Of a stretch of DNA of 64,000 bases, positions 42,577 to 64,000 are shown piece by piece. Under the pieces are notes generated by a model. The model did no database searches. It saw only the letters and a list, made by a program, of their open reading frames with translations, and was not told where the DNA came from. Each line of letters opens with the position of its first letter. Position 1 is the first letter of the stretch. Made by a program: the position numbers and the translations under genes. Origin of the DNA: Nocardia altamirensis NBRC 108246 (lineage in GTDB: Bacteria; Actinomycetota; Actinomycetes; Mycobacteriales; Mycobacteriaceae); assembly GCF_001612685.1 (NCBI RefSeq), contig NZ_BDAY01000011.1:1-64000 (forward strand). The letters are read 5' to 3'.

Positions 42577-43353
42577 TCAGGCGGGTTCGACGCCACCCGG
42601 CTCGGTCGAGAGCACGATCGTGGTCCAGCCGCCGAGATGGATGCGATCCCCGCTGCGCAGCGGCACCGCGACCGTCGCCGGAATCAGCTCGTCGCTGCCG
42701 TTGACACTGGTGCCGTTGGTCGACCCCAGATCGGTGACCGTCAGCCCGTTCTCGTCCAGATGCAGCATGGCGTGCGCGCGCGAGACACCGACATCGGCCG
42801 GCGCGATCCCCAGATCGATATCGGGACGCACGCCTTGTGAGACACTGCGCTTGCCGATCAGGATCTCACTGCGCGACAACACTATTCGACGCTCAGGGTA
42901 GAAATCGGGGAACCCGACCTGATCGGCATCGGGACCCTTACGCGCGATCACCCGGTCAAAGAACGCACGATCAGCGGTCACCGTGGCCACCCACGCGACC
43001 GTCGCCGCGGAATTCACCACCGTGGCAGCCGGTTCCGCTGCGCCGGGTTGCACTGCGGAGGCAGGTTCCACCCCGCCAGCGGGGTGCACTGTGGCATCCG
43101 GCCGCACTGTGCCAGCGGGTTGCACTGTGGCGCCAGGTTGTACCGTGACGGCGGGTTCCACTGCTGGGGCAGGTTGCGCTGTGAGGGCGGGCAGCGCCGA
43201 ATCGTGCCCGCACACTTCACAAAAGCGCCCGCCGCTGGGCGCACCACACGACGGGCACCGCGAGACCGGTGCCGCGACCGCCGCCATCGGTGCCCCGCAC
43301 ACATCGCAATAGTCGAGCGCGCTCGACTGGTGTCCCTCCGGACAGGTGCCCAT
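42577..43353 (-). CDS. FHA-domain protein with N-terminal zinc ribbons
   Basis: The 258-residue protein starts with two zinc-ribbon-like Cys groups (CPEGHQSSALDYCDVCG, about 4-20; CPSCGAPSGGRFCEVCG, about 33-49). A Pro/Thr linker of seven six-residue repeats (65-106) and a C-terminal FHA domain (about 150-245: ILIGKRS, VSRAHAMLHL, VTDLGSTNGTSVNG) follow. FHA domains bind phospho-threonine, so this is a likely reader or substrate of the PknG encoded upstream. Its start shares one base with the VWA stop. GarA, the mycobacterial PknG target, is also an FHA protein, but lacks the ribbons. Confidence 0.85.
   Translation of the reverse strand: MGTCPEGHQSSALDYCDVCGAPMAAVAAPVSRCPSCGAPSGGRFCEVCGHDSALPALTAQPAPAVEPAVTVQPGATVQPAGTVRPDATVHPAGGVEPASAVQPGAAEPAATVVNSAATVAWVATVTADRAFFDRVIARKGPDADQVGFPDFYPERRIVLSRSEILIGKRSVSQGVRPDIDLGIAPADVGVSRAHAMLHLDENGLTVTDLGSTNGTSVNGSDELIPATVAVPLRSGDRIHLGGWTTIVLSTEPGGVEPA
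43036..43161 (-). repeat. 18-bp tandem repeat coding a Pro/Thr linker
   Basis: Seven diverged 18-bp units in the FHA gene encode V-x-P-x-x-T/A/G hexapeptides (VEPAVT, VQPGAT, VQPAGT, VRPDAT, VHPAGG, VEPASA, VQPGAA). The linker offers several Thr residues that could be phosphorylated and read by the adjacent FHA domain; that is inference. Confidence 0.8.
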
Positions 43354-60348: not shown

Positions 60349-61382
60349 CCCTCACGCGCCCGAACCGCTTGGCGCACACGCTGATTCCCGGCACCGCGCC
60401 CCTGGACCGGCACGAGGCCGCCAAGAACCGGCGCGAACTGCGCCTGGGCGTGGCAGGCGCCGGATTCGTCGTCGTGCTCCTGCTGATCACCGCGTTGATC
60501 TATGTCGTCCCGATCGGCAAGGCCACCTACACCGCCGAACTCACCGAGGCACAGTCGGTCAAGGTCGGCGACCAGGTGCGCATCGCCGGAGTCACCGTCG
60601 GCGCCGTCACCGCACTGGACCTGGAATCGGACCGGGTGCGCATGGCCTTCACCGTCGACCGCGACGTCTTCCTCGGCGAGGCAACAACACTGGAGCTGCG
60701 CATGCTCACCGCGGTCGGCGGCCACTACCTGGCCGTGCTGCCCGCAGGCAACACCCCACTGGGCACGACCACCATCCCCGCCGAGCGAGTCCGGCTGCCC
60801 TACAGCCTCATCCGCACCCTGCGCGACGCCGCCGCACCCACCCGCCAGATCGACGGCGACACCCTGCGCAAAAACCTCGCGGCCCTACAGGATTCACTCG
60901 AACAGAGCCCCGACGCGCTACGCAGCATGGGCAGGGCAGTGCAATCGTTCGTCGACGTCCTCAACCAGCAGAACACCGAGGTGTCGCGGGCGCTGAGCGT
61001 GATGACCGAATACCTCGCCACCCTCGACGACAGCAAATCCATCGTCGGTGAAGTGGTGCGCGCCCTGGGGATGCTGATGGTCGCCGGACTGGACAAACGC
61101 GGCGAGATCGCGGTGGCCTTGTCGATCACCGCGCAGCTGCTCTCGCGCATCGCCGCACTGGAACCGGCCTCGCGCGAGATCCTCGAACCGCTGGCAGGCA
61201 AGCTACGCGACACCCTGCCCCAACTCACCGAACTCAGCGCACAACTCGATGCCGCGGTGCCCGCATGGCGCGAGCTACGCGACCGGCTCGTGGCTGCCAC
61301 CGCCGGACCGGACGGTGTCGTGATCGATCACTCCGCGCTCATACCCGAGATCTGTGTGCCGGTGCCGGGGAGGGCGTGCTGA
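60336..61382 (+). CDS. mceC: MceC-type lipid-transfer protein
   Basis: The 348-residue protein has a membrane helix (GVAGAGFVVVLLLITALIYV) after a 35-residue cytoplasmic tail and an MCE domain (YTAELTEAQSVKVGDQVRIA, GVTVGAVTALDLESDRVRMA). A long helical region ends with Cys residues (EICVPVPGRAC). It belongs to the hexameric Mce complex. Its stop overlaps the mceD start (TGATG). Confidence 0.92.
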   Translation: MQRLTLTRPNRLAHTLIPGTAPLDRHEAAKNRRELRLGVAGAGFVVVLLLITALIYVVPIGKATYTAELTEAQSVKVGDQVRIAGVTVGAVTALDLESDRVRMAFTVDRDVFLGEATTLELRMLTAVGGHYLAVLPAGNTPLGTTTIPAERVRLPYSLIRTLRDAAAPTRQIDGDTLRKNLAALQDSLEQSPDALRSMGRAVQSFVDVLNQQNTEVSRALSVMTEYLATLDDSKSIVGEVVRALGMLMVAGLDKRGEIAVALSITAQLLSRIAALEPASREILEPLAGKLRDTLPQLTELSAQLDAAVPAWRELRDRLVAATAGPDGVVIDHSALIPEICVPVPGRAC

Positions 61383-62479
61383 TGAAACGACTGCTCACCA
61401 CACCGGGTTTCGTCACCGTCGTCGGCGCGCTGATGCTGGCCGTGCTGGCCGTGGCCGGATATCTGATCGTGGTCGCACCCGCCGAGAAGACGGTCGGCTA
61501 CTGCGCACAGCTGCCCGACGCGATCGGGCTCTACCCCGGCAACCAGGTGACCAGCCTCGGCATCCCGGTCGGCACCGTCACCACCATCCGCCCCGAAGGC
61601 ACCGGCGTGCGCGTCGAATTCGACATCGACGCAAAGCATCCGCTGCACGGCCAGCCCACCGCCACCACCGTGTCCGACACCCTGGTCGCCGACCGCAGCC
61701 TGGCCGTGTTCGGCGAACCCGGTGCGCCGCTGTGGGATCGCGGGCGCTGCCTCACCAAGACCTTCACCCCCAAGAGCATCAGCCAGACCCTCGACAGCTT
61801 CGCCAAGGTCGCCGCCCAGCTCAACGGCGGCAACACACCCGCACAGCAGCACCGAATCCGCGACGGCGTCAACGCCTTTCGCGCCGCGACCGCCGACACC
61901 GGCCCGCAACTCAACACCCTGATCACCGACCTGGCGACCGCGCTGCGCCAACCCGACGCCGCGATCGGCAACATCGGACGCCTCATCGACGCCTTCGCCG
62001 CCATCGCCTCGAGCATCTCGGCGAACTGGGACGACATCGCCAGAGTGGTGCTGCGCGCCAACGACGGGATCGGATTCATCAACGAACTCTGGGGACGGGT
62101 GGTCCAGATCGCCGACTCACTGCTGGTGCTGCTGCCCTGGCTCAACCGCCTCGCCAACACCTACGGCCGCCCACTGCTCGGCGCCCTCGACGGCGCGGTA
62201 CCCGGACTGCGGCTGCTGGCCGCCAATGTCGGCTCCCTGCAACAGATCATCACGATGATCCCGCCGATCGCGACCGCCTTCGCCAAGACCACCGACCCGG
62301 CCACCGGCTGGCCGCGCCTGACCTACGCACCACCCACCCTGACGCTGCCCCAGCCGCAAGCCGACCAGATCTGCGCCGTGCTCGACACAATCACGCCAGG
62401 GCAGTGCCGCACCGCAGCCGACGGGCTGTTCGTCACCGAGCTGGCGCCACTGATCCTCGGCACAGTGGGTGCACGATGA
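61382..62479 (+). CDS. mceD: MceD-type lipid-transfer protein
   Basis: The 365-residue protein has an N-terminal helix (GFVTVVGALMLAVLAVAGYL) and an MCE domain (YCAQLPDAIGLYPGNQVTSL, GIPVGTVTTIRPEGTGVRVE). It continues with helical segments and paired Cys near the C-terminus (DQICAVLD, GQCRTAAD), as in other Mce D-type proteins. Its stop overlaps the mceE start by 4 nt (ATGA). Confidence 0.92.
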   Translation: MKRLLTTPGFVTVVGALMLAVLAVAGYLIVVAPAEKTVGYCAQLPDAIGLYPGNQVTSLGIPVGTVTTIRPEGTGVRVEFDIDAKHPLHGQPTATTVSDTLVADRSLAVFGEPGAPLWDRGRCLTKTFTPKSISQTLDSFAKVAAQLNGGNTPAQQHRIRDGVNAFRAATADTGPQLNTLITDLATALRQPDAAIGNIGRLIDAFAAIASSISANWDDIARVVLRANDGIGFINELWGRVVQIADSLLVLLPWLNRLANTYGRPLLGALDGAVPGLRLLAANVGSLQQIITMIPPIATAFAKTTDPATGWPRLTYAPPTLTLPQPQADQICAVLDTITPGQCRTAADGLFVTELAPLILGTVGAR

Positions 62480-63804
62480 ACCGGCAGGCGCGTCGCAGCG
62501 CCATCGTGGTGGCCGTGCTCGCGGGCTTGCGCCGCAGCATCGTCGGCGTGGCCGTGCCTGCGGGCTTGCGCCGCAGTGAAATCGGCGTGGCCGTGCCTGA
62601 GGGCCTGCGTCGCAGTGTCATCGGCGTGGCCGTGCCTGAGGGCCTGCGTCGCAGTGTCATCGGCGTGGCTGTGCTCGCGGTGTTGCGCCGCAGCATCGCC
62701 GACGTGGCCGTGCTCGCGGGCTTGCGCCGCAGCATCGCCGGCGTGACTGTGGTCGCGGGCTTGCGCCGCAGTGTCATCGGCGTGACTGTGGCGGCGGTGC
62801 TCGCGGGCTCGGGGTGTGCGTTCGATCCGTCGACCGTGCCGGTGCCGGGTGCGACTGTATCCGGGCCCACTTATCAGGTGCGGATCCAGCTCGCCAACGC
62901 CCTCAACCTGCCCGCCCAGGCCAAAGTCGTCGCCAACGGCGCACAGATCGGCAGCCTGCGCTCGGTGCACGTGGTCGATCCCAGCCCGACCGGCAGCGGT
63001 CGCGTCGACGCCGTCGTCGAGATCTCCCGCGCGATCCGGCTACCCACCGCCACCACCGCGCAACTGCGCCAGAACACCCTGCTCGGCGACATCTACATCG
63101 GACTCACCACCGCCGCAACAGGTTCCACCGACACCATCGCCGACGGCGGCACCATCCCGCTCGCCCAGACCCGGCCCGCGCTGCAAGTCGAAGACCTGCT
63201 GGCAGGCATGTCCACCTTTGTCGCGGGCGGCGCGATACAACAGGCCCAGGACATCATCGACCGCGTCAACACCGTGCTGCCCGCGCAACCAGCCGACACC
63301 GCACGGATCTTCGACGTGCTCGGCCGCGACGCAGTCGATCTGGCCGCCGACCTCGGCGCGGTCGACCGGCTGCTCGACGCCGTCGAACAGGATCTGCGGG
63401 TGGCACTGGACAACCCGACCGAGCTCGGCGAGCTGCTCAGCGAACGCGGCGCCGTCGAGATCCCCGCCGACGCCAAATCGCTGGTGCTGACCCTCGGTGT
63501 CGTCGGCGGCCTCGGCATCATCGGCGCCGCGGTGCAATGGCTCGGGCCGCTGCTCGCCGCCGGTGACGCCACCGCCAAAGCGCTGGTGCCACTGCTGTTC
63601 ACCTACCGCCCGCTCGATCTGAGCGCGCCGTCGAACCTCAACCGGGTAGTAGCGCTGTTGCGGGACAAGGTGATTCCCTTCGCCGAACACGGACCCAAAC
63701 TCAACATCACCCGGATCGAGATCGACGGCGCCGCCACCCCGAGCACCGACGAACAGCTCCAGCAGATGCTGAGCGCCTTGCGCATGATCGGAGTCGTGCG
63801 ATGA
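62476..63804 (+). CDS. mceE: MceE-type lipoprotein with expanded N-terminal repeats
   Basis: The MCE part (YQVRIQLANALNLPAQAKVV, ANGAQIGSLRSVHVVD, RQNTLLGDIYIGLTT) and the lipobox-like VLAGSGC mark this as the lipoprotein of the hexamer. With the coupled start at 62476 (ATGA overlap) the lipid-attached Cys is residue 114, because residues 6-109 are eight 13-residue units of form GVAVxxGLRRS-x-I. A normal signal peptide is about 20-35 residues long. GTG 62749 inside the last units would give a normal 22-residue signal, but has no ribosome-binding site. Without repeats the remaining protein has ordinary family length. Confidence 0.88.
   Translation: MNRQARRSAIVVAVLAGLRRSIVGVAVPAGLRRSEIGVAVPEGLRRSVIGVAVPEGLRRSVIGVAVLAVLRRSIADVAVLAGLRRSIAGVTVVAGLRRSVIGVTVAAVLAGSGCAFDPSTVPVPGATVSGPTYQVRIQLANALNLPAQAKVVANGAQIGSLRSVHVVDPSPTGSGRVDAVVEISRAIRLPTATTAQLRQNTLLGDIYIGLTTAATGSTDTIADGGTIPLAQTRPALQVEDLLAGMSTFVAGGAIQQAQDIIDRVNTVLPAQPADTARIFDVLGRDAVDLAADLGAVDRLLDAVEQDLRVALDNPTELGELLSERGAVEIPADAKSLVLTLGVVGGLGIIGAAVQWLGPLLAAGDATAKALVPLLFTYRPLDLSAPSNLNRVVALLRDKVIPFAEHGPKLNITRIEIDGAATPSTDEQLQQMLSALRMIGVVR
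62491..62802 (+). repeat. 39-bp minisatellite in mceE, eight units
   Basis: Units begin with CG(T/C)CGCAG at 62491, 62530, 62569, 62608, 62647, 62686, 62725 and 62764, an exact 39-nt period. The units have diverged from one another and keep the reading frame. Two neighbouring units (62608 and 62647) are almost identical through GTCATCGGCGTGGC. The array lies wholly inside the signal-peptide region. Confidence 0.95.
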
Positions 63805-64000
63805 ACCGGGTGCGCAGCAACGCCGGACCGCTGGCCTCCCTCGGCGCCATCGGCGCGATCCTGCTGCTGGGCAGCGCGTATCTGCTGTTCGGGGTGGTCA
63901 AGATCGACTGGTTCGCTCAACGCCTCGACGCGACCATGGTGCTCGCCGACTCCGGCGGGCTGATGCCACGATCGAAGGTGCTGCTCTCGGGCATCCAGAT
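63801..64000 (+). CDS. mceF: MceF-type lipid-transfer protein, partial
   Basis: The first 66 codons are present before the window ends. They give a short basic start (MNRVRSNAGPLASLG), one membrane helix (AIGAILLLGSAYLLFGVV) and the beginning of an MCE domain (VLADSGGLMPRSKVLLSGIQ). The ATG overlaps the mceE stop by 4 nt. It is the sixth mce gene, as expected. Confidence 0.88.
   Translation, partial: MNRVRSNAGPLASLGAIGAILLLGSAYLLFGVVKIDWFAQRLDATMVLADSGGLMPRSKVLLSGIQ

Follow-up and report, generated by a model that had tools for sequence, protein, structure and literature searches.

The window analysed here, the first 64,000 nt of contig NZ_BDAY01000011.1 of Nocardia altamirensis NBRC 108246, ends within an operon with the gene order yrbE, yrbE, mce genes, in which mceE lies between mceD and mceF with overlapping starts. 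Two matches to MlaE-family permeases and further Mce-family matches, several of them under the curated cut-offs, were found in the operon, its first mce gene lying outside the scan. The mceE product carries an MCE/MlaD domain (PF02470, E 8e-12), and with an 11-sequence profile its best solved relative was chain E of 8fed, from the Mce1 complex of M. smegmatis (E 2e-25), while its match to TIGR00996 stayed under the cut-off (80.6 of 140.5 bits). The Cys at the lipobox is invariant in the 11-sequence alignment A1. As judged from these matches, the gene encodes MceE, a lipoprotein from an mce operon for lipid transport in Nocardia. The features of the locus are as follows.

61382..62479, + strand: mceD (sequence, list of open reading frames and PF02470; TIGR00996 match below cut-off)
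62476..62478, + strand: coupled ATG start of mceE in an ATGA overlap (sequence, overlap in relatives, Shine-Dalgarno (SD) pairing)
62491..62802, + strand: tandem array of eight 39-nt in-frame units (TRF, unit table, sole own-genome match)
62491, 62530, 62569, 62608, 62647, 62686, 62725 and 62764, + strand: starts of the array units (codon register)
62764..62814, + strand: last unit plus AGSG, RRSVIGVTVAAVLAGSG, presumed signal-peptide core and lipobox (translation, hydropathy)
62815..62817, + strand: lipobox Cys, residue 114, presumed mature N-terminus (conservation in relatives)
62815..63804, + strand: mature MceE with stop codon; MCE/MlaD domain at residues 131-211, then a C-terminal part
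63801..64000, + strand: start of mceF in an ATGA overlap with the mceE stop, continuing beyond the window (sequence)

The start of mceD appears to overlap the preceding mce gene in TGATG, and its stop codon, TGA at 62477-62479, overlaps the ATG of mceE. Eight in-frame 39-bp units displacing the Cys to residue 114 had been described in a first-pass annotation of this DNA, and both points were confirmed, the units by reading of the sequence and by TRF, and the Cys by counting from ATG 62476 to the codon at 62815. TRF called an array at 62490-62784 (period 39, 7.6 copies, 83% matches, 0% indels) with a score of 331, the highest in the 64-kb window, where the runner-up scored 126; this call ends 21 nt into the eighth unit, and the codon register carries the array on to 62802. 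The units thus stand head to tail and in frame, with a length that is a multiple of three, as in a coding minisatellite. Each was also said to supply Arg-Arg-Ser and a hydrophobic run, and in translation RRS is present in all eight and is followed by 10 mostly hydrophobic residues, the run being interrupted by Pro in three units (2, 3 and 4), by Glu in two of these (3 and 4) and by Asp in unit 6.

The genome is a draft (9.83 Mb, 167 contigs) and arrays of such length are prone to mis-assembly, which raises the question of a wrong copy number. Against this, all eight units differ mutually at 3 or more of 39 positions, so that each is uniquely placed in the assembly, although an identical collapsed or missed copy would escape this argument; furthermore, a comparable feature, consisting of two 24-bp arrays, occurs in genome G131, which is assembled in 5 contigs. 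An assembly error is therefore hardly to be expected.

Searching the own genome with the array DNA returned one match at E <= 0.001, the array itself (40 of 171 first-look candidates scored), and a MIRU-like dispersed repeat was rejected on this result. Across the genus a match at E <= 0.001 was obtained in 46 of 150 genomes, the own genome included; outside it the matches covered 27-81 bases only, with E >= 1.8e-5. Other minisatellites are present in the own genome, since in 400 kb from parts of contigs C3 and C11 eight places reached a score of at least 100 (best 257), and in six of them the period is divisible by three; each of the eight is overlapped by three or more open frames, long ones among them, which in G+C-rich DNA is no proof of coding. 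Minisatellites are thus ordinary for this genome, and the MceE array ranks highest among those observed. Among 40 mce loci (189 kb, that of the window included) just one further array reached a TRF score of 80. A special RNA structure was sought in a stretch of 381 nt, which proved to fold scarcely better than its shuffled versions (z = -1.24, with 12 of 100 shuffles as good).

In type II signal peptides the Cys usually lies about 15-35 residues from the start. The region preceding Cys114 has the positive n-region, the hydrophobic core, with 15 uncharged residues ahead of the Cys in the RRSVIGVTVAAVLAGSG segment, and the lipobox (RRSVIGVTVAAVLAGSG-C, judged by eye) of such a peptide, but a Cys at the usual distance is obtained only from internal codons, the Cys being residue 114 from the coupled start. 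The array might accordingly be an untranslated spacer between mceD and mceE, with MceE starting inside it, for example at GTG 62749, from which the Cys is residue 23 and the signal peptide would have an unremarkable 22 residues. GTG codons do recur in frame along the array, and at this G+C content a chance open frame of such length would not be improbable. SD pairing, on the other hand, was strongest at 62476 among the 25 in-frame ATG, GTG and TTG codons, with -7.0 kcal/mol against -6.0 for the next codon, a lead of only 1 kcal/mol, and -3.7 for 62749. For comparison, random places gave a median of -2.7 and a 5% quantile of -7.0, two upstream starts in the same operon gave -12.8 and -5.4, and nine related coupled mceE starts ranged from -7.2 to -12.3. 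The comparison favours the coupled start at 62476 by a small margin, and the suggestion that the array could tune the choice of start site was not borne out.

The position of the start was also examined in relatives, by a survey of the sequence ahead of the conserved Cys in 186 rows. These represent 162 distinct loci, the better-scoring ones among the matches listed; the partial row G091:C39 was excluded. A Cys stood at the lipobox place in 184 of the 186 rows, duplicates included, the two exceptions (L205 and L206) being probably other Mce subunits that were kept in the 162. In 159 of the 162 loci mceD and mceE share an NTGA overlap; the script found none at L017, L068 and L111, where other readings give leaders of 17, 21 and 45 residues, and L123 and L138 were ambiguous. 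The overlap is also present at L085, which bears an array of its own, and was read by hand at L075. The common start in these relatives is therefore the mceD/mceE overlap and not an equivalent of 62749. Together with the frame kept through eight units, where the other two forward frames have three stops each (one of them that of mceD itself), and with a weak purifying signal on the amino acids described below, these data make an internal start rather unlikely.

Leaders in the relatives are mostly short. In the 159 loci with the overlap the median was 26 residues and the 95th percentile 64, and 147 of them have 16-49 residues. The closest orthologue among the matches listed, L013 (80% identical), has a 23-residue leader with one core, the 12 distinct loci from outside Nocardia, L003 included, have leaders of at most 34 residues (two of the 12 being without the Cys), and two paralogues in the own genome have 24 and 29 residues, a third at G000:C60 standing outside the comparison. 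Removal of seven units of 13 residues from the 113-residue leader of the window leaves 22 residues, which would then be the ancestral length. The short leaders and coupled starts of the relatives show the array to be a derived feature of this lineage, grown from a leader of normal length (about 22 residues) and lying truly within the signal peptide.

Leaders of 50 residues or more were found at 12 of the 162 loci, 11 by script and L075 by hand: L146 and L160 (153 residues each), L075 (136), L156 (134), L165 (124), L151 (116), the window (113), L164 (100), L085 (76), L155 (63), L086 (59) and L159 (53). Ahead of the last 22 residues the net charge is positive in all 12 (+3 to +17), as expected for a segment left in the cytosol. 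The other 11 are hydrophilic before the final core, with a mean hydropathy below 0 and a best 11-residue mean of at most 1.65, whereas the leader of the window is hydrophobic (mean 0.71, best 11-residue mean 2.85) as a result of the repetition of its core; a reiterated hydrophobic core was seen in the window alone. The leaders of L146, L156, L160, L164 and L165 begin with MRIGxW and share further stretches in several species, which suggests a conserved N-terminal tail of one MceE group. In the 116-residue leader of L151 (G050:C110) a tandem repeat and a palindrome arm were looked for and neither was detected.

The first-pass annotation knew of no described Mce lipoprotein with such a feature, but taken as uniqueness this does not stand, given the 11 other leaders of 53-153 residues and the arrays that L075 and L085 have at the same place. 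L075 (G131:C1 near 275512) carries two in-frame 24-bp arrays of 4.6 and 5.5 copies flanking a palindrome, and L085 (G145:C72 near 12224) an in-frame 27-bp array of 4.4 copies. Neighbouring units in these arrays differ at 0-2 positions, giving them a young look, and share sequence with the palindrome arms. In addition, an 8-residue leader stretch looks doubled in G035, G054, G055 and G122 when compared with G094, G115 and G057. In a TRF survey of 158 upstream segments, each of 760 nt and some of them duplicates, all five calls scoring at least 60 (L012, L075, L085 and L155) fell between start and Cys, a region making up about 12% of the bases, and none in the mceD part. With the window set aside, the remaining three loci would be placed in this way with a chance of about 0.002, a value that weighs tolerance and not mutation rate.

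An arm of the palindrome, queried as CCSGCNTGCTTTTGGCCGGRAT, was matched exactly in 22 of 148 Nocardia genomes, 370 times in G131 and not once in the own genome. Both arms, with at most two mismatches each, are present in frame in 6 of the 12 long leaders (L075, L086, L146, L155, L156 and L160), one arm in L085 and L165, and neither in the window, L151, L159 and L164. The palindrome at L156 starts with CGTC, and this dispersed, REP-like element may belong to the CGTC-tagged REPs. Its insertion, or that of a Rickettsia palindromic element (RPE), was rejected as the source of the array: the window gave no match to the palindrome at up to three mismatches, at least seven mismatches being needed within its leader, and the own genome held no exact copy. 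On the evidence of these loci, the MceE leader in Nocardia appears as a recurrent site of growth that accepts in-frame repeats and inserted palindromes.

The units of the window array have diverged. Adjacent units differ at 8, 7, 3, 7, 9, 4 and 10 of 39 positions and no two are identical, which argues against a recent change in copy number, so that the array looks old, without recent duplication, unlike those of L075 and L085, which on the same grounds are the better candidates for copy-number polymorphism. The proposal of copy-number tuning from strain to strain was thus unsupported, since, with one genome per species, nothing indicated that units had been gained or lost recently. Over all 28 unit pairs together, pS was 0.32 and pN 0.18 (pN/pS 0.57), against 0.40 and 0.115 (pN/pS 0.29) for mature MceE compared with L013, and by this measure the array is under weaker constraint than the mature protein. 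Nevertheless, in a base-reassignment test the amino-acid differences between units fell below the neutral expectation (P 0.036), while charge was not avoided in the hydrophobic positions (4 charged residues against 2.5 expected, P 0.87).

These figures bear on whether the reiteration has been selected, with several RRS-hydrophobic cores raising, slowing or tuning the export or assembly of MceE and copy number possibly serving as a dial. RRS is kept in 8 of 8 units despite synonymous variation, and the deficit of amino-acid differences is in line with such selection, as is the hydrophobicity of units 1 and 5, whose 11-residue means of 2.63 and 2.85 compare with 2.44 for the last unit; the lack of core reiteration in the other 11 long leaders can be read in the same way. 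However, Glu, Asp and Pro occur in units 2, 3, 4 and 6 with no avoidance of charge, the units are diverged without recent copy change, and L013 has one core, and selection for reiteration is consequently considered fairly improbable.

Whether the leader is removed at all was considered as well, as an uncleaved leader could stay associated with the membrane and serve as an anchor, in the way that N-terminal helices do in other Mce subunits. Taken as a whole the array is hydrophobic, with 19-residue means of up to 2.02, but Arg-Arg every 13 residues divides it into 11-residue segments, which would be short for membrane helices, and the Cys is conserved. In the predicted structure (11 sequences; mean pLDDT 40.5, pTM 0.26) residues 1-97 are without secondary structure, and the sole helix before the MCE domain in this low-confidence model comprises residues 98-110. 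As for the twin arginines, which occur eight times in the contexts ARRS and LRRS, Tat signal peptides have theirs within S/T-R-R-x-F-L-K. Anchor regions of Mce proteins are rich in Arg pairs, and 12 of 161 were recognised as Tat substrates, according to the accessible part of PMC1810536. In the Mce1 complex, as presented in the accessible sections of PMC9882608, Mce1E is resolved only from its to-be-lipidated Cys; cleavage at Cys114 fits this picture, and an uncleaved anchor is very unlikely.

Taken together, the array is probably best explained by expansion of a weakly constrained leader that is discarded, the last unit being the working signal. A lipoprotein signal peptide of about 22 residues would have been lengthened by repeated tandem duplication, always in frame, of the 39 nt that encode its RRS-plus-hydrophobic part. 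Translation would begin at ATG 62476, coupled to mceD, the Arg-rich leader would remain on the cytosolic side, and the last unit, RRSVIGVTVAAVLAGSG, would drive export; after lipid attachment signal peptidase II would cut before Cys114 and the 113-residue leader would be thrown away. It is this removal that is proposed to leave the region weakly constrained, and we infer that the extra units are without function. The main contrary fact is that units 1 and 5 match the last unit in hydrophobicity, so that unit 1 could engage the export machinery, which speaks against a passive leader; likewise, the P value of 0.036 and the RRS in all eight units point to some constraint and speak against inert extra units. 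The N-terminal tails of MceF, a neighbour that is not cleaved, were compared at 57 loci and measured 11-43 residues (sd 6.2; the value of 11, at L184, rests on an internal start), against 16-113 (sd 14.1) for MceE at the 47 of them for which a leader length was available. When the window and L189 (134) are excluded, MceE leaders at the compared loci have a maximum of 43, the same as the MceF tails, and the contrast is thus weak evidence for the discard idea. The MceE leader of Nocardia could instead be a hot spot at which minisatellites and palindromes build species-specific positive leaders with a cytosolic job before cleavage, such as the timing of export or docking to the permease or ATPase, and the window, where such growth would have gone furthest by repeating the signal core, would then hold eight consecutive entry points for export; we regard this as unlikely.

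Long signal peptides are known, and so are coding minisatellites and in-frame REPs. MIRU repeats occupy the overlapping stop and start codons of mycobacterial operons and are dispersed at many intergenic junctions; the MceE array shares with them the location at an ATGA junction in an operon, but its unit is undispersed and comes from the signal peptide of the gene itself. With MceE proteins of the Mce1E/LprK type, such as M. smegmatis Mce1E (8fed chain E), the protein of the window has in common the MCE domain, the position between MceD and MceF and the lipobox Cys. This Cys is residue 33 in Mce1E, going by the accessible sections of PMC9882608, and in the window it follows a 113-residue leader of eight repeats. 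Actinobacterial coding minisatellites or VNTRs, for example those of pe/ppe genes, likewise consist of head-to-tail coding units with a length that is a multiple of three; the MceE array differs in its diverged units and in lying in a cleavable signal peptide and not in the mature protein. In-frame pe/ppe variants and promoter repeats are the subject of PMC12817950, in the accessible main text of which the terms 'lipoprotein' and 'signal peptide' are absent. CGTC-tagged REPs and RPEs also provide in-frame additions that are tolerated, some of them near N-termini, but the window array is without a palindrome, the REP-like element occurring instead in other Nocardia MceE leaders; Nocardia is unmentioned in the accessible main text of PMC3733652 on REPs. 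Neither a repeat-expanded Mce leader, nor repeats recurring in one cleavable leader, nor a reiterated signal core was found in the open-access literature searched.

The array illustrates the apparent extent to which the signal peptide of a bacterial lipoprotein can be lengthened in nature. The Nocardia leaders form a natural series, with 16-153 residues ahead of the Cys and with the core repeated or not, that lends itself to probing the requirements on the n-region. For assigning the starts and mature ends of Nocardia MceE proteins, the conserved Cys and the overlap with MceD are a better guide than the expected leader length.

Further repeats were seen elsewhere. In the own genome, minisatellites with periods of 27-36 lie in open frames at L208 5265-5464, L208 11527-11823, L210 9708-9873 and L211 19443-19592. 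Within the window, the protein predicted on the minus strand at 42577-43353 has, as judged by eye, a zinc-ribbon-like N-terminus and perhaps an FHA domain, and the short Val/Pro-rich repeats of its linker correspond to an 18/36-bp array at 43044-43191.
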